Positions 1-42,384 of a DNA stretch of 64,000 nt are shown piece by piece. Numbering within the stretch: position 1 is the stretch's first letter; each line of letters opens with the position of its first letter. The notes beneath the pieces are model-generated. The model was not told the DNA's origin and made no database searches. It saw only the letters and a list, made by a program, of their open reading frames with translations. Origin of the DNA: Pohlia nutans (Eukaryota > Streptophyta > Bryopsida > Bryales > Mniaceae); contig CM040103.1 in NCBI GenBank assembly GCA_022496805.1, positions 20,746,820-20,810,819 of the forward strand. Direction: 5' to 3'. The translations under genes were made by a program, and so were the position numbers.

Positions 1-3000
1 CTCACCTCTTCTTCATTGTGATCTTGAAGAGATACCCTACACAATGAATCGATTTCATTTAATGTGTGGAGTACCTTCTTATGCATCACACCACTTGAAT
101 AAACCTCTTCTATAGGTACATCCATTTGAGATGGAATCGTGATGTCAATGTCCTCCATTTCGGGTAGCATAGGTAAGGCTTCTTCCACCACTTCATTGAT
201 TTTGGGCGCTTCAAAAAACTCCTTGACAATAGCTTGCACTCCAAAAATATGCTTGCATGTGGATACTATGTCGGGGCAATTGCAATAGTGTGTTTTTAAA
301 GACACACTATACCAAAGAGTGGGAGAAGTCTCACTTTTGACATGGAAAAGAAGATGATCCTTATCAATCACCTCCAAAACGTCCATGGGAGAGAATTGGT
401 AAGCTTTGAATATCCGCTCTCCTCCTTTCAATCGACGACGGTGATTTTTGTCATTCCCTCTTCGTATATACCGCTCCGAATCACCTAAACATTGAACAAT
501 TAAATTTAAACTTAGTATCATGTGTGAAACACGTTCAAAAACTTGAAATAATGAGAGAAAAAAATAAGAAAAGATGGAACTTACTCAAACGTTGAGTCAT
601 TTTGAATTGACTCAACAATGTGGGTTGAACCACATGGGTGCCATCTTAGGCACTACCAACAATGGCCACGATAAGATCACGAAGCGACCGATTCACCTTT
701 CCTTGAAGAAGGGTGTACTTGATCAACTCCCAATGTCTTTCGACATGGTTAGTTGTGTCCATTCCTCCATAAGCAAAAAGCCTTCCAAATCGAGGCCACA
801 ACCTTCTCCAAGGTACATTAATTCCGGCCCATCCGGAATTAATATAGGTAGCAAATCTCGGGATGTGTTGAAATTCAACACAAAAATTTCTTAAGTTCTC
901 ATCAAAATGAGACTCATTAGGACAAAGCATTAACACATGTAACGCCCTCCAAACCCGGTCTTTGTCCTCATTTGGAATACTTGTCAATAAATTCTCACTC
1001 CATGCTTTCATCACGTGGAAGTGACATAACAAGACCCGTGCACCTATTTGCACTTTTGCACCATCCTCATAAGTCGAACACAAGACATCGTTTTGAACAA
1101 CATTTTGAATTGCGTTCAAGGATGTCTTGTGTTTATCAATCACTATTGCGGACGGCCTTATCTCTCCTAAAGACTCAAAAACATGGGTCAATGCTATTTC
1201 AATGGCAATACCCTCATGTCCTTATTTCACATCATTACTACATAACATGTAAAAGACCGGAATCCCAATTCCGTCTTGATTTGGCACAATAGCCGCACAA
1301 AGAGGTAAACCGTATTGATTGGTTTTAAAAGTAGAGTCCAATGCCCAAGAATTATTACCGGAAAATCGTTTTGCCAAATTCCGCATGAACTCATCTTGAA
1401 TAACCACAACAAACGGCCTCTTTCTTGGGTCCTCATCCTTAGGTGCATAAGGTTGATAATAGAGAATCTTCCCTTGAGCTTGTAGTCTCATAATCTCAAT
1501 TTGGGCCGCATCCCAATCATCTTTGCGAAGTGCGTCTACACACACAATACCAAAAACTTGTCATCAAATTGTTACCAATATTCATACTTTTTAGGCTATT
1601 TCAAAAATTAGCAAAATTTCATCAATCCTAATAAAAGAAAAACTAGCAATAAAAATGACATTAACATATTTCAACTTTTATGTTTGAGTCAAATGTAGAG
1701 GTATTGCGTTCTTTCATGAAGAATTATGAATTTTTAAAATGAGTCATTCATGAATGCTTTAAATCAAATAAAACAATGAGGTTGAAATACTAACCATTTA
1801 ATTTCAAAGAATATGCAAGCATTTGCACTTCTTTCTTGATAATGAAAAAGCGATATGTCACACGTTCAACCTCCGGCACACTTTGGGAGAAGGTCTCTTG
1901 AGCTTCCACCGACGCGGCTTCCACCACTCTTGGAGAATGCATAAATTTCAAATTCTCCATAACCCAAGCTATCACATATGGGTGTACGGGTAAAAAAAAT
2001 GTATCCGCATCGGATCCCGGGACATGTCTACTATATTGACTATGCACATAAATGGTGGCTTCAAGCTTATCTTGAGACAAGGTACTTGAAGACTTAGATT
2101 GTGTAGGTTCCACTACCTTCATTTGGAACTCACAATTGCACAATCTAGAAGTCCTATCTCTTCTAGATTCTTTCTCATTTTTCATTTTTTCATGTACCGT
2201 TTTCCTATGTGTACGGTTCTTATTTCCACCCCGGTGACAACGGTAATAAGTGACGGTTTTTTTTTTCCAAACACGGCGTTTACAACGCCTTTTGAGCACA
2301 ACATGTTTTGTGCAAATGGCATCTAAAGTAGAACTTAGATCCTCTAATGGAACACACACAAGTTCATCCCAAAAAAATTTCTCTTGACACTCTTCACGAG
2401 AGTTCATACAATTTTGTATGAATGAGGCATGAATTCCACCTACTTTGATATCGGTACTCCATTGAGTACGAATGCTATTCATTGTCAAAGACAATGACAA
2501 GTGTTTGCCACTTCTATCAATATGACCTCTATAAACAATTGAACGCCAATACTCTATGGGCGGAATTTGTCTATTCTTTGTGTCATACAAAGGAGACAAT
2601 GCAAATCCATCTTCCACTTCTACAACTTTGAGTTTGACTTGAATTTTGTTCCACCTCTCAATTGTAAAGGCCTCTAATTTTGTTTTAGTATCCCTCCCAT
2701 GGATTTTTGAAAGAGGACAAAACAACGGATTTGCCTCTTGAATTTGGTGAAAGGAAGGGAAGTATGCCCCCCTTATGCAATCAACCATGAGTTTGATAGA
2801 TGAAAGTGTGAAGTGTACATACGTGGGAAAAGTCTCAATAGGAATGTCTTCAAACATTGAAGAAGTGAAGTCTTGAGAATGTGTTGGAGTTCCAATGTTG
2901 ATGCTCTCCACTCCATTGACTATCAAATCCTCCCATGGCTCCAAAATCACATCATCTCCATCCTCCTCATCTACATCCGAATCTCCATTTGAAGACAAGA

Positions 3001-3157
3001 AGTAGGTTTCTTGGAATCTTGAGTCTTCAACATTTCGCAAACCATTTTCATGAACTCCTTGTAGAAATTCTTCTACCCCCACCAACTCACTTGCATCATC
3101 CTCAAAATCGGAGGGGTAGAAGTTGTCGTCCTCCATGTAATCACCATCATCCTCCAT
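1..3157 (-). pseudogene. MULE-type transposase with SWIM zinc finger, partial, two in-frame stops
   Basis: Mutator-like transposase read on the minus strand; it runs off the left edge. Exon 1 is about 3157-1795 (Met at 3157, acidic N-terminus, then a basic Cys/His segment ending in RLCNCEFQMKV, like FAR1/MULE DNA-binding regions). Exon 2 is 1535-585 and exon 3 is 484-1; both introns have GT-AG ends and keep the frame. Exon 2 holds the MULE core: WALDSTFKTNQYGLPL (first Asp), IVIDKHKTSLNA (second Asp), LLCHFHVMKAW, and TTNHVERHWELIKY (Glu). Exon 3 holds a SWIM finger, YCNCPDIVSTCKHIF (CxC...CxH). Two stops break the frame: TAA at 1222-1224, and TAA at 646-648 where the decayed relative at 51.67 kb has AAA. 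Probably a recently inactivated autonomous element; terminal repeats were not located. Confidence 0.85.
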
Positions 3158-3468
3158 TTTCGACACCAAAGCTTCACACACTCTTAAAACAGTCACACAC
3201 ATAATCTTCATTAGGAACAATATATGTTAACTTAATCAAAACCCTAAAGATCATCAACCCTAATTTTTAACAATGCATAATTCATACAATGCAAAATACA
3301 TACAATGCATAATACATAATCATAGAACAATACATAAATAATTTGAGAAGGGGGAGTTTTCATACCTTAGGAGTTTGAAGGAGAAGCGGTGGAAGACAGT
3401 ATTGGGGGAGGCCTCCAAACAGCTCCCAGTAAACTCTCTCCCTGATGGCAGCGCTGATGGCACGAACA

Positions 3469-3848: not shown

Positions 3849-4756
3849 ATGGCGCTCCTGACAGCAAGCGAGCTCGGGTTCCGCACTGCAGTGCTTTCCT
3901 ATTAAAAATGCAGGTAACCCTAATAACGAATTACTCGTACACTGCACTGTCGTTGAGTTTCAGCTTTAGAAATTAAGGGTTACGTTTACTTTGATCTGCA
4001 GGTCGAAGCAAACTTTCATGTTGGTGAAGGGGCTCAGGAGACGACGCAGCTTTTGCACGGCCAGGAAGAGGCTTTGAAATTAAGGTTGGTGATTGCTTGT
4101 GTCGTTCCTTGAGGCGTCTTTGATCACCTCCTGGGGGTGTACTATGTTAAATTTGTTAAAGTATGTGTTAGTGCACGAAAGGGATATTAATTTGAATATT
4201 GCCATACAAAGTATACATAATAGACAGAGCTGAAAATATTGACGCATGCTTAGGACGGAATAGATCTGTAAACAAAGGTTTTAGACACATATATAAACCC
4301 TAGTATACAAGGGTTTATGAATGCAAGTGATTCTCAAACACAATGTAAGTGCACCGTGGGATCACTTGTTTTGAAGCTCTATCGAGACATTAGAGTTAAC
4401 CGAAAAGAAGCCCATCTAACCTCCCTTTTTGCTCTACTTCTAACCTCTTTTTTGAACTATACTTGGGTTGAATGGTGTCGTGTCATAGCTTGTCCCCTTG
4501 TGGGCCATGGGCTTGGAGCTTTGGTAGAAGGTGTGGGAGTCATTGCGAGGTGTGGAGAATAATCACAGCTTGTTTTAGATTGTCTCCCAACTCATCATGA
4601 ACTAGTTTTCGGTCTATTTGTATTTCAATATGAGTTCAAGAGGAGTTTGCTAAAACTTTCCTCTTTGAGCTGACTTCTCGGTTAACTAAATTGGATTTTG
4701 GATATACATGCAACTAGGTCTCTGACAATTGGTAGTGTTGTTGATCTACAAATTAG
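3849..4756 (+). other. Leader exons and first introns of the cytochrome b561 gene, with a uORF
   Basis: An exon ends at 3913 (donor GTAACC), a second exon is 4002-4084 (acceptor CTGCAG, donor GTTGGT), and an acceptor CAAATTAG precedes 4757. Splicing these gives an open frame from an ATG at 3908 through 29 codons directly into the cytochrome b561 frame (KLRSDWDSEAMAVYSG). A short uORF, ATG 3849 to TAA 3905 (18 codons), ends just before that ATG. The in-frame joins support a spliced 5' part. The family usually starts near the ATG at 4779, so the extra N-terminus may be untranslated leader. The second intron carries a hAT-type MITE. Confidence 0.5.
4130..4359. mobile_element. hAT-type MITE, 8-bp TSD (GATCACCT/GATCACTT), in the b561 leader intron
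   Basis: About 230 bp, beginning CCTGGGGGTGTAC and ending GTGCACCGTGG. It is flanked by 4122-4129 and 4360-4367, which match at 7 of 8 bases. The interior (TTGACG, GGACGGAATAGATCTG, GTGATTCTCAAACA) is shared with the elements at 13477-13726 (opposite strand) and 30513-30762. Confidence 0.75.
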
Positions 4757-4778
4757 GTCAGATTGGGATTCGGAAGCG

Positions 4779-5462
4779 ATGGCGGTATACTCAGGCGTGA
4801 CAACGAGGCATCTGGCGCCCGTGGTGCATTTGCTAGGGCTTGCAGGCATAGTGCTGATGGTGATCTGGACGTCGTCCTTCCGAGGTGGCTATGGATTGTC
4901 CGGCACGGCTGTGTTCAATCTACACCCGTTGATCATGTTCGCGGGCTTCATCGTCCTGTCCAGTGAAGCCATTGTGGCGTTCAAGTCTCTCAACAAGAAG
5001 CAGAAGGCAGTGCACATGACAGTCCAAGGGGCTGCAACCTCTCTAGCGCTTGTGGGAATCGGCGCCGCATACAAGTTCCATGTCGACAACGGCATCCAGA
5101 ATTTCTACAGCTTGCATTCCTGGTTGGGACTCGCCACCGTCACCTTGTACCTGGCGCAGTGGATTTTAGGGTTTGTGGCTTTCTGGCAACGCCGTGTCGC
5201 CAAAGCGAAGCGCACTGAGCTTCTGCCGTGGCATGTGTTCATGGGCTTTGCAGCGTACACGGCTGCGCTTGCCACTGCTGAGCTCGGATTGCTTGAGAAA
5301 CTCACGTTTCTGCAGAAATCGGGACTGGGTCTCTGGTCTGGTGAAGCCATGCTTGTGAACATCCTCGGCGTTGTCATCTGCGTTTACGGTGTCGTTGTGG
5401 TGTTGACTACTGTGGTTCCCAAACCTCGCAGGGAAGCAGGATTCAGAGACTTGTTAGAGTGA
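4779..5462 (+). CDS. Cytochrome b561 (ascorbate-dependent transmembrane electron carrier)
   Basis: A single coding exon gives 227 aa from the ATG at 4779, matching the usual length of plant CYB561 proteins. These move electrons from ascorbate on one side of a membrane (tonoplast or endomembranes) to monodehydroascorbate or ferric iron on the other, through two b hemes. Six hydrophobic helices are visible. The four heme-ligand histidines are in place: H49 (FNLHPLIM), H79 (KKQKAVHMTVQ), H113 (FYSLHSWLGL) and H152 (LLPWHVFMG). The pairs H49/H113 and H79/H152 are the standard heme pairs. SGEAMLVN and the short polar tail ending DLLE are also typical. Upstream leader exons can extend the frame N-terminally. 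The end of this exon is duplicated 168 bp downstream. The gene looks functional. Confidence 0.93.
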   Translation: MAVYSGVTTRHLAPVVHLLGLAGIVLMVIWTSSFRGGYGLSGTAVFNLHPLIMFAGFIVLSSEAIVAFKSLNKKQKAVHMTVQGAATSLALVGIGAAYKFHVDNGIQNFYSLHSWLGLATVTLYLAQWILGFVAFWQRRVAKAKRTELLPWHVFMGFAAYTAALATAELGLLEKLTFLQKSGLGLWSGEAMLVNILGVVICVYGVVVVLTTVVPKPRREAGFRDLLE

Positions 5463-34765: not shown

Positions 34766-35824
34766 GAGCGTTTATTGTGATATACATGACTTGGTGCTGC
34801 TAGCGAATTATTCATAGGCAGGAAAGTTTGTACCAACCAACCGGCCCCGTCCCATCTACCTAAGACAAGTGTGTACTGTGAGCTAAACAAATATCTAGTG
34901 ATAGCCACCCAATACTATTATATAACGTGCTGAAAAAATCCTCCATGTCGGTCACACTATTCATGAACATTCGATAAAATAATTTAGGGTTTGAAGTTTG
35001 AGAATTTTTACCATTTAATGTTGGTAACATTAGTAAGGTGGTGGAAACCAGCCCTTTTTATTCTGGCTGAATAAAGCCAGATGTAAAAACGACCTGGCGA
35101 AACTATAGTTATAATGATGGGGGTAAAACCTCAAGATGTTGCCACGTCGCCATCTGATGTGTGCATCCCCTCGCCACTATGGCGCCTGATCATCACAGAC
35201 TCTTCGCCAGCGGGTTTAGGGTATACAACCGGTTTACGAGTCTTCATCGCCAACTCGGGGAAGTCACCGTCGAAAATTTATATAACTATGAGAGAACAAA
35301 TATAGGGTGTCTTTTATTCATCTGAGATAAAAAATTATAAATTTATAGAAGTAATATAGGGTGTTTTAAAACCATTTAAAGAACATTCTTAGAATATACT
35401 CCTTAATATGCTATAAATAGTAGAATATTCCAATTATTTCATAGCCCCCATTAAATACCCTTTGTAAGCTCATATGTACCCAAAATTTACATTAAGTGAC
35501 TTCCCCGAGATTGCCAAAACGCGTCCTCGCATTCAAACACCTCGACAACACGATGTAACTCTACACGATGTAACTCTACTGGTCCAAAAAACGGAGTCAA
35601 AACTTGTTTTTGGTGCCCGTGAAGCTAAAATTCAATTATACCTCGTCTTTCCTTTTTCTAACTTAGTAAACTTTTGCTAAACTTTTGCACATAAGTCTAT
35701 TCACAAAAAATAAGATAACTGGGAGCTTGTTTACTCTAGCTCAAGTACAACAGTGAGCCGATCACTTGGATTGACAATACAAAAAATGTGAGGTTGTGAA
35801 GCTTTCTTTTGACGGGTTTGCTTT
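34766..35824. other. Intergenic DNA with an inverted repeat
   Basis: CGCCAACTCGGGGAAGTCAC near 35249 and GTGACTTCCCCGAGATTGCC near 35496 are imperfect complements about 230 bp apart. No gene is seen. The right part is the 3' flank of the minus-strand fusion gene. Confidence 0.35.
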
Positions 35825-38800
35825 TCATCCAGGGAAGTTACCAGTGTCTCGGTGATGCTCAAGCACGCGTGACAACCCAAATTCCTGCACTGAAGCCATC
35901 GCGTGACGGAACCCATCTCCAGCAATGGGCGATGGATCGGTAGAGATTTTGTGCAGATAGAATTCACCAAGACGAGCTTCACTGCCGATTTTCCAGTTAT
36001 TTGGTGATGAAGATGATCTCTTGCCATTCAGCTGTATGAGTTCCCTTGTCAGCCATATGTGTGACATAACATTTCTTATACCGCTTTCCACTTCAGGGCG
36101 CAAGTGTAGGTATGTTCCTGCAGAGAATCAAATTAAGTGAATTAGAAGTGGAAATAGCACCTACTCGTTTCAAGTACTTTGAAAACTGTTGTTCAAGTCC
36201 TTTGAAAACTGCAATCAAAGTGCAGATAATGGTAGAGTAAATCTGCTACACTGTTCACTTTTTTTGGTGTATTCTGAACTAAATCTGGACTTTACAACCT
36301 ACGACTATGTGACACAAAAATGCTTCAAATGAACATCCACACAAAGCTAGACACGCACAATCGATACTCATGATCGACAGTATCTATACATTCACACCAA
36401 TTAAAGTGGAGTGTACTGAGATTGCTAGAAATTGGTTGCAAGAAATTGCTACACTGGGTTACCTTGGAGAAGAAGCCAAGCACGCATGAATTCGCAAGCC
36501 AAGATAGAGCCAGTGAGCAGCCTGCAGAGAGCAAACAATTACCCAAAGAATAGTGAGTACTTGAACAACAGAACTGATTGATAAAGCTGGAGAATTCTCC
36601 AATTTACTCAGTCACTTCAACGTGGTGTTGTGAACGAAGCTGCAAAACTTTTACACGGATAAAGAAGATGGATCTTCATAATAAAAGAGCATAGAAGGAT
36701 GAAGAATAAAGATCTACCGGGGAAGCCCATAGAGGACAAGGATGGCAGTAACTTTACAATGATGCTTTCGCATGTGCCTCATCGGATCGCTTGAAACAAA
36801 TTGGAACACCTGCTTGGAAGCTCAAGAATACATTAATACATTGAGCACATAACAAGGAAGCAAGATGGTTTGTTGAAATAAATTTGCATAATTAGCTGCA
36901 GCAGAGTCACACTCCATACGTATACAGCATACCCAAAAACTTTTGAACAAAATCATGAGTTTGACCTTAACACTAATATCCTTTTCATATTGCATCCAAC
37001 CCCACGTTGAATAACACGGGAATACTCCATAACATTGAGAAACGGCATTCTGTGACCTCACCGTAGGTTCTGTTCGTTCCTCTGAAACGCACAACCCTCG
37101 TATCTCCGCTGCATGAGATTCCTTTCCACCAGAAAAATGCAAAAAAACTAGCTTTTCATTCCTTTCCAAGAAACATATCACTTTAAGGACTACCAAAACA
37201 TTTGAATAACTTTTGATATTTAAAAATGAACTATTGAGTGTAACCAGATATTGGAACTAAAACTCAAACATGGTAGTGAAATTAATAAGCAAATCCACTT
37301 ACTTTAGCATTCATGGCGCTTCGTTCAACCAATTGCATCGGAATGAACTCCGTTATTGGCATGTCCATGTCCTTGTAAAACTTAAAAATTCCACGGTACA
37401 AAGGCTGGCAATCTTTGGTACGCATAACACTATATTCCGAACACTCCGGACAAACCCTACGGCCATCTTCTAGTGCTGCATATACTCCTTCAACTTTATT
37501 CTGCACTCAGCATTCACGTTTGTCAAAAGATTTGACATTTTTTCAAAACAAAGCTGTATTGCGAAACAACATAATCAAAATTGGGTGCCTGTTCTTAAGA
37601 ACTTTCAAACCTGATAGGCAACTAGTAGCCTTGATGGGCAGATCGTTTAAGGCTGAGCATAACCAATAGAAGATTCACTACTAGCCTAGTGTACTAGCCT
37701 AGTACCCTTCAGTAGTTATAAGAGAATGGATATAAATGCGCATTTGAGAAAAAGCATCCTAACCTCAAAGCGATCACAACTACAGCAGCGGGGTGTGCCG
37801 TCGCTCTCATGGTATGGGCAATACTTCATATTCCAAAATGGAAGTGTCTGAAACTTTACAAGCCCAGCTGCATTTCTAGGACACTGCGCAAACAATAGAG
37901 AATGAGTTCCTGCAAAGTTGCAGCCACCAATATGAGGGGGACCAACAAAATCATTGTTATAATAACGGTCAAAATAATATCAAGCTCGAGCTACTGCTCA
38001 TTCAGAATCGGAGGATCAGCTAACAAGCTTGGCTTATTCAAAGGTTTTGCTAAATCCGTTTGTGAGCTGCACTTACAAAGTTGTTGCAAACTTCACACTT
38101 GATCTGCAGTTCCAATTCACTTGATCTGCAGCACACTAGGAACGGAACCAAAGAAAATTTTCAGTTTCTTTCCTTATGCAATATGTAAAAAACATCTACA
38201 CACAAATTTGTGCACAACCCAAAACAGGTGGTGGATCTCAATCTTCCTGTGAAGACAAAGAAGACATCATGTACGTGACTTACATGGCATGAAAGTTCCA
38301 CACTTGATGTGCCTCAGCTGTGCACAAATTTCACCAAAAGTTGGCCGATGTCTAGCTTCAAAGCTCCAGCAGTCCTCAATCAATCTCTTCAACGTATGGG
38401 GACATTGATTTGGTAATTGTGGACAATAACCATTCAAAATCCTCTTCTTTACTTCACTTGGGGAGCAGATCTCTGAGAAAGGTATATTTCCAGTCAAAAT
38501 TTCATAGCAAACCATTCCAAAGCTATAAACATCGCTTTTGAGTGGATACTTCAACTTTATCACTGTTTTTGCCTTCCAATCTTCACCAATGATTTTTATC
38601 GTCTCAGGAGCCATCCATCTTGTGGTGCCCATGTTCGGAGTCTGGTTGGAATATGTCATGCTCTTTTCTTTCGTTTTGGATAGCCCAAAATCTGCCACCT
38701 TCACATGCAAGTAATCAAATCTTGCACTTGTTGTCTTCACACATTTCACCAAAACGTTACCTGATTTTAAATCCCTATGTAGAATGTGCTTCTCATGAAG

Positions 38801-40133
38801 GAAAAGCATCCCTTCGGCCACTTGCAACATGATATCTACAGCTTCAGAAATAGTGAAAGGAGCAGATCCAGGTGATCTATCCAATCTTTTCTGCATGAAA
38901 GAGTAAAGATCGTCATCCATCAACTCCAAAATGATGCGACCTTCGCGCTCATTTACTGTGTGCCAAAGCAAAGCCCCAATGTTAGGATGGCACAGTCCGT
39001 CTAAGATTGACACTTCCTTCATAAAATCAGATTCTGGGTCACTTGAAGGTCCATGGAAAGTCTTCACAGCAACGTCAGCTCCTAGTCAGGTCGCTTTGTG
39101 TACAATACCCACTGCACCTTTCCCCAACTTCTGGGGCAACACCGACAAGCTCTCTTTAAGGATTTTGAGATGGCTCCGTTGGTTTCCTGGCACATCAGAT
39201 CCCGGATTCATGCTCAATCTTCCAAGTAGAAAAGTGGCCAGCTGCCTTTCTTCACTACTTGATTTGCTTGACCGAATCAGACCACTCAAATCCTCACATA
39301 ACCTGACATAGTCAAGCCTAGCCTTCTCCTCAACCTCTTGAGCTTCAGCGTTGCTCAACTTGGAAAGTGCAACATTTGTCATACAAGTGTGGTCCTTGGT
39401 AAGTCTCGACCTTGCTGTTCTCTCATCGGAAAAGATCATTCTGCAAAACTCTAACATAAAACCTATAGATGAAATATGCTCCATCTTGTTTGTCTCCAAC
39501 AGGATAGCCGATTTAATCCAGGCTTCTTTGCAACAGCTTCCGATGAAGGCCTCCACTTTGCTACTCAACACAAAGAGCAGCTTAAAAATCTCAAGACATC
39601 TAGATCCATGCTTTCAAACTTGGTGGAACCCTGAGACGTAGAGTTCATTGATCTTAAGAACCAGTCAGCGCTACGAACGGCCATTTTCAGTTTCCCCGCC
39701 AGGTATTCACTCTGGTTATCGTTGGACTTCAGTGAAGCAGAAACGTGAGATGTGGACGTCACTCCACCAACTCGGTCCATACATTCTGTTGCGAGCTTCA
39801 AGAACAGCTCCGGCGATTCAACTGAAGCAAGAGCACAATCAGCACGCGATGTAACACCAAGGCAAATGTAGCGAATGTGCTTATCTAGAGAAACATACAG
39901 GAAATACACATCATATCTGAACTACAAAAGAGCAGAGAGAAAATTCGCTTCTGCTGGATACTGCATTCCACGGTACTAAAGTCAGCATACGAAATTGGAA
40001 AAGACACCATGCTAAAACACGATAATTATTTGGTATGAGAAATACCAGCTTCCTCAGTCGCATTTGTCTTTGCAAATCCGGTATCTTCAGCCACCGCTTT
40101 CCAGATCTTCAAAATCCACTCCATGCACTCCAT
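35825..40133 (-). pseudogene. DUF1221 - protein kinase - DA1-like (LIM-like + peptidase-like) fusion gene with nonsense and frameshift
   Basis: Nine exons: 40133-40046, 39884-38284, 38135-38077, 37883-37764, 37500-37303, 37121-37062, 36809-36718, 36521-36463, 36117-35825. All junctions are GT-AG and phase-compatible; restored length would be about 856 codons. Exon 2 holds the plant DUF1221 region, then a Ser/Thr kinase: GKGAVG loop, VAVK, HRDLKSGN, DFG, APE. Exons 3-4 carry the DA1 LIM-like part ([21 protein letters not shown]). Exons 5-9 carry the DA1 C-terminal region (CQPLY, LVERSAMNA, RGLCVSEE, CKVTAILVLYGLPRLLTGSILA, RPEVESGI). The DA1 zinc motif HEMMH reads CEFMR, so peptidase activity is unlikely. 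TGA at 39086-39088 replaces the expected Trp of KATWLGADVAVK. One base is missing between 39567 and 39614. No separate DA1 start or canonical first LIM domain is present. Confidence 0.82.
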
Positions 40134-40830
40134 GGTGCATAAAAGCTCCTAAACAGTACACGATACTTGGTAACTTGTATGAAGCGCCTGGTAGCCTATC
40201 TGGAGGTGATCTAAAAGTTGGATTATAGCGCCTCTGAGATCACAAGCAACAAAAAAACATGCATCAGCAACCATCACCAACCAGTGATTTACTTCTGTCC
40301 CAACTAGCGTACCAACTGTCTATATTTCGATCCAGCATTCATCATGTCGTAAATTGCAACATAAATTACAAATGGTAGGGATGATCGCTGAACAAGGGAT
40401 CCAAGCCTCCTTGACCAACTCCCGCAGTATCATTCTTGCACCCGTTGCATCATCGCTGAAACACACTCACCGCTTACTCACATCTCGAAGTCTGTCGAGC
40501 GAGAAAACAAGACAAAGTACTGTCGGTAAGAGTAACTTAACCAAGCCCTTCGCCCTCAGTTTGTGGCCAAGCGCACGCCAATTTCATCGGCACAGTGTTC
40601 TCGTTGCAAGATTGGCGAGATCCTGCAAGATGCCGCTGCGCTCCCCAAGTGGTCAAAATCCTCCCTCGCAGCCGTTTACAGAGCTTGCAAGGTGACTTGC
40701 CGAAAATAGCGAGCCACTCTTAACCTTCCACAACCTTCCACAACCTTCCACATGTATCTTCGTCAACATCAACGAAGGCCGCAGCAGCCGACTGCAGCTT
40801 GCAGCTAAGTTATGGTAGGAACACCTATTT
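40134..40830 (-). promoter_or_regulatory. Upstream region of the kinase-DA1 fusion gene
   Basis: Higher GC than the flanks, without a supported coding frame. Three tandem CCTTCCACAA-like units lie near 40728-40752. The likely promoter and 5' UTR of the minus-strand gene, by position only. Confidence 0.35.
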
Positions 40831-41989
40831 TCGTGCATTTAAGGAATTTTGCCTATTTCCAATGGGATTTAGATGCTGGTTTTTTTATACCGTATTAGCA
40901 ATCTAAAAAAAAGGTGAACCCAGGTGAAATTAAATTTTTCTCATTCTATATGAATATACTATGAATTTTCAAAGTTTTGTATGTCTAGACACCTATTTAT
41001 GTGCATAGACCCCTCCTAAAAGTGTGCACAAGGACAACTCACCTTTTGGTGGCTTGTGCCAATCAATGAGTGCCTTGTGTTGGATTTGTTTTAGAAATAG
41101 AATCTTATGTGCACAGTACTAGGTGAGGCATTGCTTGTGAATGCATGCATTTATAGGGATTGCTTTTAGGGGGGCGCTCGAGTATGGGTGTTCCTACATG
41201 TGCGTGGGAGATGTCCAACATCCTAACATACAGCGGAAGAAAGTGCAAAGAGGCCGAGGCGTTGATACCCTACAACTCCCGGGCAGCTACCTCTAGTAAA
41301 ATTATCCCCAGTACCCTTTGAAGGTCGGGGGCGTGGGCAGTATGAACTCGGGCAGGCTCTTTGCCGCGCCGGCGCTCCGTTTCCATCGACGGCGTGCCCA
41401 TGGACGGCGTTCCGATCCCTCCGTCCGTCCGTTGCTGAGCAGGCTTGACTCTGGCGTCATGATGTACAGGAGCTAGTTGTGCATGCACAGTTGGCACACT
41501 GACACTCATCAAGCAGACCGAGAATCTGGACACTCACGCACAGTGATCTCACAACTGGATTTCTACCCAAAAAAATTAATGGGGCTGCTAAACATACAAA
41601 AAAAGAGAATGAATGTTTTTTTGAAATGTAGCGAGAATGCTCATCATCTTATAAATATGTAGCAACTTCATGAGGTGATATCTGCGGATATCATTACGGT
41701 ATCACCTTAACATATCAAGGGTATTGCCGGATATTATAGAGGTTTTGTGAGTAGTACATTCACAAGGTAGCAAAAGTAGATACCATTTATGTGGGAGGCA
41801 GCACCCTGTGCTAAATGTCATAAAGTGGTTCTGAGATCACTGCAGTCACGAGGAATCTTGCAAGGAGGAGGAAGAAGAAGAAACTGTGGTTCACTCAAGA
41901 GCATCAATTCCATTCATTTGCATTTTCAGATGTTGGGCACCAGGACGATGAGCGTAAGCCGCACGTGCTTGCTCTTGGACAGCAAATCA
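40831..41989. other. Intergenic; GC-rich patch 41160-41460
   Basis: The patch has CpG-rich motifs and a CCATCGACGGCGTGCCCATGG stretch of imperfect repeats. The 87-codon minus frame there has no recognisable domain. Confidence 0.3.
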
Positions 41990-42183
41990 CACTAGAAGGA
42001 AATGTGTTGTTTTTCACTTACTATAAATGAAAAAGAAATGAAACGGCGCCAGACACATGGGTTGTGTTAGTTCTAATGAGTAGTTTTGGTCACAAGAAGA
42101 CAGAAATGTAAGTATAATATTCCGGTACTATTCATTGTTCCCAAGAAATGAGGAATGAAAAACGACAGGTTTGCTACTAGTGT
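41990..42183. mobile_element. CACTA-type MITE, TSD TCA
   Basis: 194 bp, CACTAGAAGGAAATGTG to TTTGCTACTAGTG, flanked by TCA. Reverse-complement relative of 32551-32743. Confidence 0.85.
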
Positions 42184-42384
42184 CACCTGCCTTGCTCAGC
42201 TCTCTGCACACCCTCACCTGCTCTCGCCGCTTCCATCTCTCGCAAACAGTAAGCCTCAGTTCTCACACTCTGCTGCAAACAATGGATCAAAGCCACGGAT
42301 CAAAGCTCTCTGGATTAGGGTTTTGAGGTAATTGGGGTTTTTGTTGAAGAGAGCAATAACAGCTCTTGCAAGTGCACCCTCAAC

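Follow-up and report, generated by a model that had tools for sequence, protein, structure and literature searches.

Seven MLKL-like kinase units with DA1-derived exons in the moss Pohlia nutans: a candidate kinase receptor with an integrated decoy

The locus and its sister copies

The stretch under study comprises 64,000 nucleotides from the moss Pohlia nutans (NCBI GenBank assembly GCA_022496805.1, contig CM040103.1, positions 20,746,820 to 20,810,819 of the forward strand) and is referred to here, at its full length, as the window; it lies on contig C19 of a 698 Mb genome. On its minus strand is a unit of predicted exons in which a protein kinase with an MLKL-like N-terminal domain is followed by a module derived from the peptidase DA1 (Table 1). 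An earlier reading of this DNA, made from its letters without database searches (the sequence-only reading), had proposed that the kinase and the DA1-like part form one fused gene. The splice on which that proposal depends is borne out. The donor at the end of the kinase exon and the acceptor of the next intron join the two parts in phase, and the exon thus entered encodes KCEVCNNF. All eight junctions, from exon 1/exon 2 through to exon 8/exon 9, are phase-compatible, as had been claimed; the exon 1 donor (GTATTT) is in phase 1 and matches the acceptor preceding 39821. Exon 2 carries the kinase motifs VAVK, HRDLKSGN, DFG and WMAPE, while the window protein matches the DA1-like Pfam model PF12315 (E 6e-41) and its DA1 part by itself holds 292 open codons up to its stop.

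What the window holds is nevertheless a decayed copy, belonging to a moss gene family of several members, and not the working gene that the sequence-only reading had assumed. Its kinase frame is broken relative to all six sister copies, by two extra bases that occur in the window copy only and by a TGA where the sister copies have TGG. These two lesions rule out an intact gene at the window coordinates.

The sister copies were identified by searching the genome for DNA similar to the kinase exon, which gave at least 41 matches, the window itself counted. Six more units, L019 to L024, were found on contig C7 with 92-94% identity across the kinase exon; one further, short match (93%) lies within L019 and represents a partial duplication in tandem, and all remaining matches are at or below 71% identity. 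Each of the six C7 kinase exons is followed by DA1-type exons in the same order and with the same splice places, L020 being without the last one. Pairwise identity over the aligned unit is 85-93%, and the window copy is no more distant from the C7 copies than those are from one another. A chance, one-off adjacency of two genes was also considered and is ruled out, the arrangement being common to seven units.

The sequence-only reading had suggested a search for intact orthologues. Within this genome, two of the six sister copies are open through both parts. With splicing predicted as in the window, L022 (C7:5029000-5036700) is open from ATG to stop over 911 amino acids and L023 (C7:4827500-4835000) over 844, and the spliced L023 protein matches both PF07714 (5e-55) and PF12315 (3e-48) in Pfam. 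The fusion therefore stands at the level of the family, where L022 and L023 each have a single open frame and indels in the DA1 exons keep the frame, and falls for the window copy, which is broken. The motifs VAVK, HRDLKS, DFG and WMAPE are retained in the kinases of all seven copies. As for the lesions on C7, L020 has a 20-base deletion in the kinase and has lost its last exon, L021 has a frameshift in the kinase, L019 has five extra bases in exon 8, and L024 has lost its exon 3 donor to a deletion.

It should also be noted that in L019 (C7:4761500-4769000) about 300 bases round the kinase end and the junction intron are tandemly duplicated, the extra copy having a stop in its kinase end. On contig C8, the counterpart L025 (C8:4757500-4764500) consists of the upstream sequence and the last DA1 exons only, the middle of the unit being gone. 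DA1 matches pair up in a similar manner on C1/C2, C3/C4, C7/C8 and C11/C12, as if these contigs were homeologous.

Table 1. Features of the kinase-DA1 unit in the window; exons follow the predicted model.
Feature	Position	Strand	Basis
Duplicated unit common to the C7 copies (upstream sequence, kinase exons, DA1-derived exons)	35695..42382	-	blastn against L019-L025, matches with gaps between
Exon 1 (MECMEWILKIWKAVAEDTGFAKTNATEEA + 1 base), start codon at 40133	40046..40133	-	open frame; predicted model
Exon 2: N-terminal helical (MLKL-like) domain and protein kinase domain	38284..39821	-	Pfam PF07714, E 6e-55
Two extra bases, window copy only: frameshift in the N-terminal domain	39600..39601	-	alignment with six C7 copies
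TGA stop; TGG (Trp) in six sister copies	39086..39088	-	alignment with six C7 copies
Junction intron, donor GTAAGT, acceptor CTAG, phase 1	38136..38283	-	same codon and phase in 7/7 units
Exon 3: linker and last CxxC of LIM1 / first of LIM-like module (KCEVCNNF)	38077..38135	-	
Exon 4: LIM-like module, including CCSC	37764..37883	-	
Exon 5: LIM-like CxxC and start of DA1-like region	37303..37500	-	
Exon 6, DA1-derived	37062..37121	-	
Exon 7, DA1-derived	36718..36809	-	
Exon 8, bears the former peptidase motif	36463..36521	-	
CEFMR where the DA1 active-site motif is HELMH	36482..36496	-	
Exon 9: DA1 C-terminal region to stop; EE of HExxHx15EE is ES	35825..36117	-	Pfam PF12315

Active site, reading frame and rate of change of the DA1-derived exons

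The DA1 peptidase motif is given as HEMMHx15EE in a passage of PMC5322733. All eight unfused DA1 loci examined in the same genome have HELMH, and no fused copy retains the zinc peptidase site. The sequence-only reading spoke of a peptidase-like region and left unmentioned that the window has CEFMR in this place. All seven fused copies have lost the first catalytic His, four of the seven the Glu and three the second His; the second Glu of the EE pair is gone in 6 of 6. The zinc ligands of the LIM-like module present a different picture: eight such positions are kept in 55 of 56 instances across the seven copies, compared with 12 of 33 for five peptidase positions and 1002 of 1427 for background positions common to two unfused moss DA1s. 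Counted by column, 7 of 8 ligand columns are kept versus 83 of 212 background columns (p = 0.009), and 0 of 5 peptidase columns (p = 0.09). The DA1 region is thus, as far as its residues tell, protease-dead with its LIM-like zinc scaffold retained.

Of the features of the DA1/DAR proteins, the fused copies have PF12315 and the LIM-like zinc ligands, and are without the UIMs and a complete LIM1. The earlier statement that a canonical first LIM domain is missing is upheld in the sense that the unit begins at the last CxxC of LIM1 and earlier DA1 regions are absent. In a tree of the last exon, from which L020 was excluded, the six fused copies having that exon form one clade (support 100/99), which stands beside the moss's own C3/C4 DA1 and the Ceratodon protein P0080 (88/82).

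The indels of these exons bear on whether they are read together with the kinase. Among the seven units, 9 of 12 indels in DA1 exons are multiples of three versus 7 of 38 in introns (Fisher p = 6e-4). Restricting the DA1 count to exons 4-9 gives 6 of 8 (p = 0.004), and the kinase exon has 5 of 8. Exon 3 has undergone length changes of 18, 81 and 105 bases, all in frame, the fourth event being the L024 donor deletion. Because the DA1 exons are without a 5' half of their own and their indels come mostly in multiples of three, they are most simply explained as being kept in frame together with the kinase exon.

The junction donor is GTAAGT in six units and GTAAAT in L023. If the junction intron were retained, the kinase frame of the window would meet a TGA at the 15th intron base (38269-38267), and the six C7 copies would reach a stop after 28 or 32 intron codons, giving the kinase a tail of 28 or 32 residues. 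In line with the earlier claim that the DA1 part of the window has no start of its own, exon 3 contains no in-frame ATG there; the same is true of L023, whereas five of the six C7 copies, L022 included, do have one in that exon. A separate DA1 product initiated from within exon 3 is regarded as less likely.

Two further observations concern the junction. In L019-L024, a 3-base deletion in the junction intron takes out the early TGA present in the window. Exon 3 of L019, L020, L021, L022 and L024 bears short, in-frame KELFH-like peptide repeats at the junction, apparently from the end of LIM1, which reads YKELFHPKC in unfused moss DA1.

With regard to rates of change, in 21 of 21 pairs the DA1 exons have diverged more than the intervening introns; for the kinase exon the opposite holds in 18 of 21. 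Gapped columns were excluded; DA1 codon counts and the ratios for exons 4-9 exclude L020 (last exon lost) and L019 (exon 8 frameshift), kinase counts exclude the window, L020 and L021 (broken kinase), and intron 1 excludes L019. In the five copies thus available for DA1 exons 4-9, variable sites by codon position number 84, 69 and 60 of 267, so that positions 1 and 2 are variable at 153 of 534 sites versus 257 of 1480 in introns (p = 6e-8). The comparison on identical rows uses L022, L023 and L024, which have both an intact kinase and usable DA1 exons, and gives 109 of 542 versus 187 of 1492 (p = 3e-5). The ratio of nonsynonymous to synonymous change (dN/dS, by NG86) for exons 4-9 is 1.01-2.46 in the 10 pairs of five copies and 1.34-1.46 among L022, L023 and L024; for the kinase it is 0.45-0.80 in 6 of 6 pairs. 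We read this as amino-acid change probably having been favoured in the DA1 part, mostly outside its LIM-like exons, with the kinase under weak constraint.

The kinase, its likeness to MLKL and the partners of its relatives

The sequence-only reading labelled the N-terminal domain DUF1221. PF06760, the Pfam model of that name, has no match in the window protein at E 0.01 or in six family N-termini at E 10. In substance the label is right: when a profile built from 61 relatives other than the window copy was compared with PDB sequences, the best two matches were 6lba (profile 55-536, chain 24-521, E 1.2e-80) and 6ka4 (profile 54-540, chain 21-524, E 2.1e-74), both aligned through the N-terminal domain and the kinase, whereas the other PDB matches listed begin in or just before the kinase and cover the kinase region alone. 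The PDB labels of the two chains are 'protein kinase family protein' and 'F22L4.1 protein', and we take them to be Arabidopsis MLKLs. The N-terminal domain, collinear with the kinase, is on this alignment homologous to that of MLKL; because the Pfam DUF1221 model is unmatched, we call it MLKL-like and not a DUF1221 member. An AlphaFold model of the relative P0003 (54% identity to the window protein; predicted local distance difference test, pLDDT, 82.5) has seven helices before the kinase. Searches with the whole P0003 model by Foldseek and VIA-align matched kinases only, the list being filled by the kinase domain rather than the N-terminus.

A section of PMC10951266 describes the N-terminal domain of plant MLKLs as a bundle of four helices, known too by the names HeLo and DUF1221, and Pm13 as an MLKL-type wheat resistance kinase that retains kinase residues, while it gives the AtMLKLs a pseudokinase domain. 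The moss family shares with AtMLKLs and Pm13 the succession of an N-terminal helical domain and a kinase domain, and with Pm13 the kept kinase residues; it differs from the AtMLKLs in keeping VAVK, HRD and DFG, and from plant MLKL in general in having no Pfam DUF1221 match and, in the fused copies, in adding a third, DA1-derived module behind the kinase.

Other members of the kinase family also carry additional domains. Fifteen Ceratodon proteins, annotated gene models picked for odd domains or length, were scanned with Pfam, and the regions C-terminal to the kinase were found to include HSP70-like (P0021), SH3 (P0025), DUF7792 with ARM (P0030), MBOAT (P0032), the GIL1/IRKI C-terminus (P0048), a second kinase with EF hands (P0077), and an F-box with a weak propeller match (P0081). 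In P0035 the order is reversed, with phytochrome domains standing before the kinase. PF00012 (HSP70) occurs in the same protein as the kinase in P0021, P0023, P0026, P0028, P0057 and P0067, its C-terminal position being known from P0021, the sole one of these scanned, and the other five being taken from precomputed domain annotation.

A second kinase lies downstream of the first in at least 7 of the 23 other family loci of the present genome. The partner regions of twelve Ceratodon proteins have no match in these 23 loci (L026-L048, 7-8 kb each, E 1e-7). Such tandem-kinase arrays were noted on C19 and C21 (L026, L028, L029, L031, L033, L034 and L035).

In all seven DA1 units a donor follows LRHLK after 5 or 6 codons plus one base, and GTAAGT is found at the matching place in 10 of 12 other family loci with a recognised kinase end; at least six relatives with this conserved post-kinase donor carry a second kinase downstream. 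By eye, the sequence seems to change six residues past the same point in about a dozen of 20 Ceratodon and other motif-bearing proteins, the change being unclear in others, P0048, P0069 and P0079 among them. We infer that this may be a standard phase-1 junction at which modules are exchanged.

The best protein matches come from Ceratodon and Physcomitrium. As a partner of the kinase, DA1 has so far been seen in this genome only; among the database matches listed, kinase and DA1 part occur apart. A further protein search, which took the N-terminal region of L023 as its query, returned a single protein. In a literature search that left subscription journals mostly uncovered, none of the papers listed dealt with kinase-DA1 fusions or with moss MLKL-like kinases that have integrated domains.

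Elsewhere in the window, a 258-amino-acid open frame on the plus strand (4686-5462) has a cytochrome b561 domain (PF03188, E 2e-39). Two long open frames on the minus strand (646-1221 and 1790-3226) have no Pfam match at E 0.001 and resemble, by eye, parts of mobile-element proteins.

A candidate integrated decoy and its alternatives

We consider it fairly probable that the family encodes an MLKL-like kinase receptor with a protease-dead DA1 bait, that is, a single-chain immune receptor with an integrated decoy. This reading is favoured because a dead enzyme domain with a kept zinc scaffold and fast change is found on an MLKL-like kinase, in a cluster with broken copies. As expected of an integrated decoy, kinase and host-derived domain share one open frame in L022 and L023 under predicted splicing, and the domain is fast evolving and, by its sequence, enzymatically dead. 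The open members would encode one protein made up of the MLKL-like helical domain, the kinase and the protease-dead DA1-derived region. A pathogen molecule, or a disturbed DA1 partner, would touch the DA1 part; this contact would release or activate the kinase, and the MLKL-like domain would then signal or cause cell death. Expression as one transcript, the bait role and the cell-death output are what we infer here. The earlier idea of a bait is favoured, as a candidate role, by the dead active site, the kept zinc scaffold and the fast amino-acid change.

Several points weigh against this interpretation. The pairs and copies behind the rate counts are not mutually independent, and five of the seven copies (the window, L019, L020, L021 and L024) are broken somewhere. 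Variability at kinase positions 1 and 2 (117 of 1032 sites, versus 187 of 1492 in introns, in L022, L023 and L024) is not significantly lower than that of introns (p = 0.38), so the case for kinase constraint is carried by dN/dS alone. Since exons 4 and 5 by themselves have dN/dS of 0.70-1.43, with values below 1 in 13 of 21 pairs, fast change is uneven across the DA1 part. Of the two open copies, L023 has GTAAAT as its junction donor and L022 has the in-frame ATG in exon 3. Finally, a kinase+DA1 protein is absent among the matches listed (the best 120 of 408 and the best 120 of 975 database hits).

Three other explanations were weighed against the same evidence. The fused, dead DA1 could be a growth regulator, acting as a dominant-negative partner of normal DA1 and competing with it for regulators or partners, while control would come from the kinase. 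A protease-dead region that retains its LIM-like zinc residues would suit such a role, as would the fact that the closest unfused genes, the moss's own C3/C4 DA1, keep HELMH. DA1 exons that outpace introns in 21 of 21 pairs, with dN/dS of at least 1.01 in 10 of 10, would however be unusual for a growth regulator, the clustered and partly broken copies on C7 resemble immune gene clusters, and the UIM region of DA1 is absent; we regard this explanation as unlikely. About equally unlikely is that the whole family is dead, an old fusion having been amplified by duplication into pseudogenes in which past constraint is still visible. The lesions in five of seven copies, the C8 counterpart reduced to upstream sequence and last exons, and kinase variability at positions 1 and 2 that is not significantly below that of introns all agree with such decay. 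Against it stand the two fully open copies, the kinase motifs kept in all seven, the kinase dN/dS below 1 in 6 of 6 pairs, and DA1 exons that change faster than introns, which decay alone does not give.

Unlikely to a similar degree is that these are kinase-only genes whose transcripts end in the junction intron, the DA1 exons being downstream relics. The unspliced kinase frame does stop soon after the kinase, at the 15th intron base in the window or after 28 or 32 codons on C7, with a short tail as the result, and the catalytic DA1 residues are lost. Against this stand the frame-preserving indels and kept zinc residues of the DA1 exons, the seven DA1 exons open in frame in L022 and L023, and a splice donor that is conserved in family relatives without DA1.

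The integrated-decoy reading has counterparts in known systems. In Arabidopsis CHS3/DAR4, likewise, a defence protein ends in a fused LIM/peptidase module of DA1 origin; the moss chassis differs in being an MLKL-like kinase, and the moss unit is without the first half of LIM1. A 2023 study by Gu, cited in PMC11298796, reportedly concerns this integrated LIM-peptidase domain of CHS3/DAR4. In a passage of PMC5322733, DAR4 is described as a TIR-NB-LRR protein with a conserved DA1 C-terminus; no match to NB-ARC (at E 0.01), TIR or LRR was found in the L023 protein. With the DA1/DAR peptidases the moss unit shares the LIM-like and DA1-like regions and PF12315, whereas the fused copies are without the UIM region, the first half of LIM1 and HEMMHx15EE. 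A Ceratodon phytochrome with a kinase tail, CpPHY1, was reportedly described by Thummler in 1992 and is presumably P0035, with its phytochrome domains and kinase; there too a kinase of the moss family is joined to a sensor, the partner preceding the kinase in that protein and the DA1 module coming after it here. The cereal kinase fusion proteins (Pm13, Lr9, Sr43 and others), which are proposed to perceive effectors (PMC10951266 for Pm13), also combine a kinase and an extra domain in one protein; the moss partner differs, and the moss copies are known here from sequence alone.

The available text of PMC11218826 reports numerous integrated domains in the NLRs of mosses and, for all species tested, counts proteins of the MLKL type among those associated with NLRs; MLKL proteins with integrated domains are not described there. 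More tentatively, it is possible that the MLKL-like kinase is the mosses' second decoy chassis beside NLRs, with a phase-1 donor that would take swappable modules (DA1, a second kinase, HSP70-like, SH3, ARM, MBOAT and others) and with sensor and cell-death executor in one polypeptide; the DA1 bait would then have been recruited independently in a moss kinase and in the NLR CHS3.

Integrated decoys indicate what pathogens attack. If the interpretation is true, a DA1 decoy in both a moss kinase and an Arabidopsis NLR would mean that DA1 regulation is an old, shared pathogen target, and decoy integration would not be confined to NLRs and cereal kinases. Gene editing works in mosses and would allow a direct test of the idea. 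Were the sensors of an MLKL-like protein swappable, perception and cell death would be linked in one molecule.

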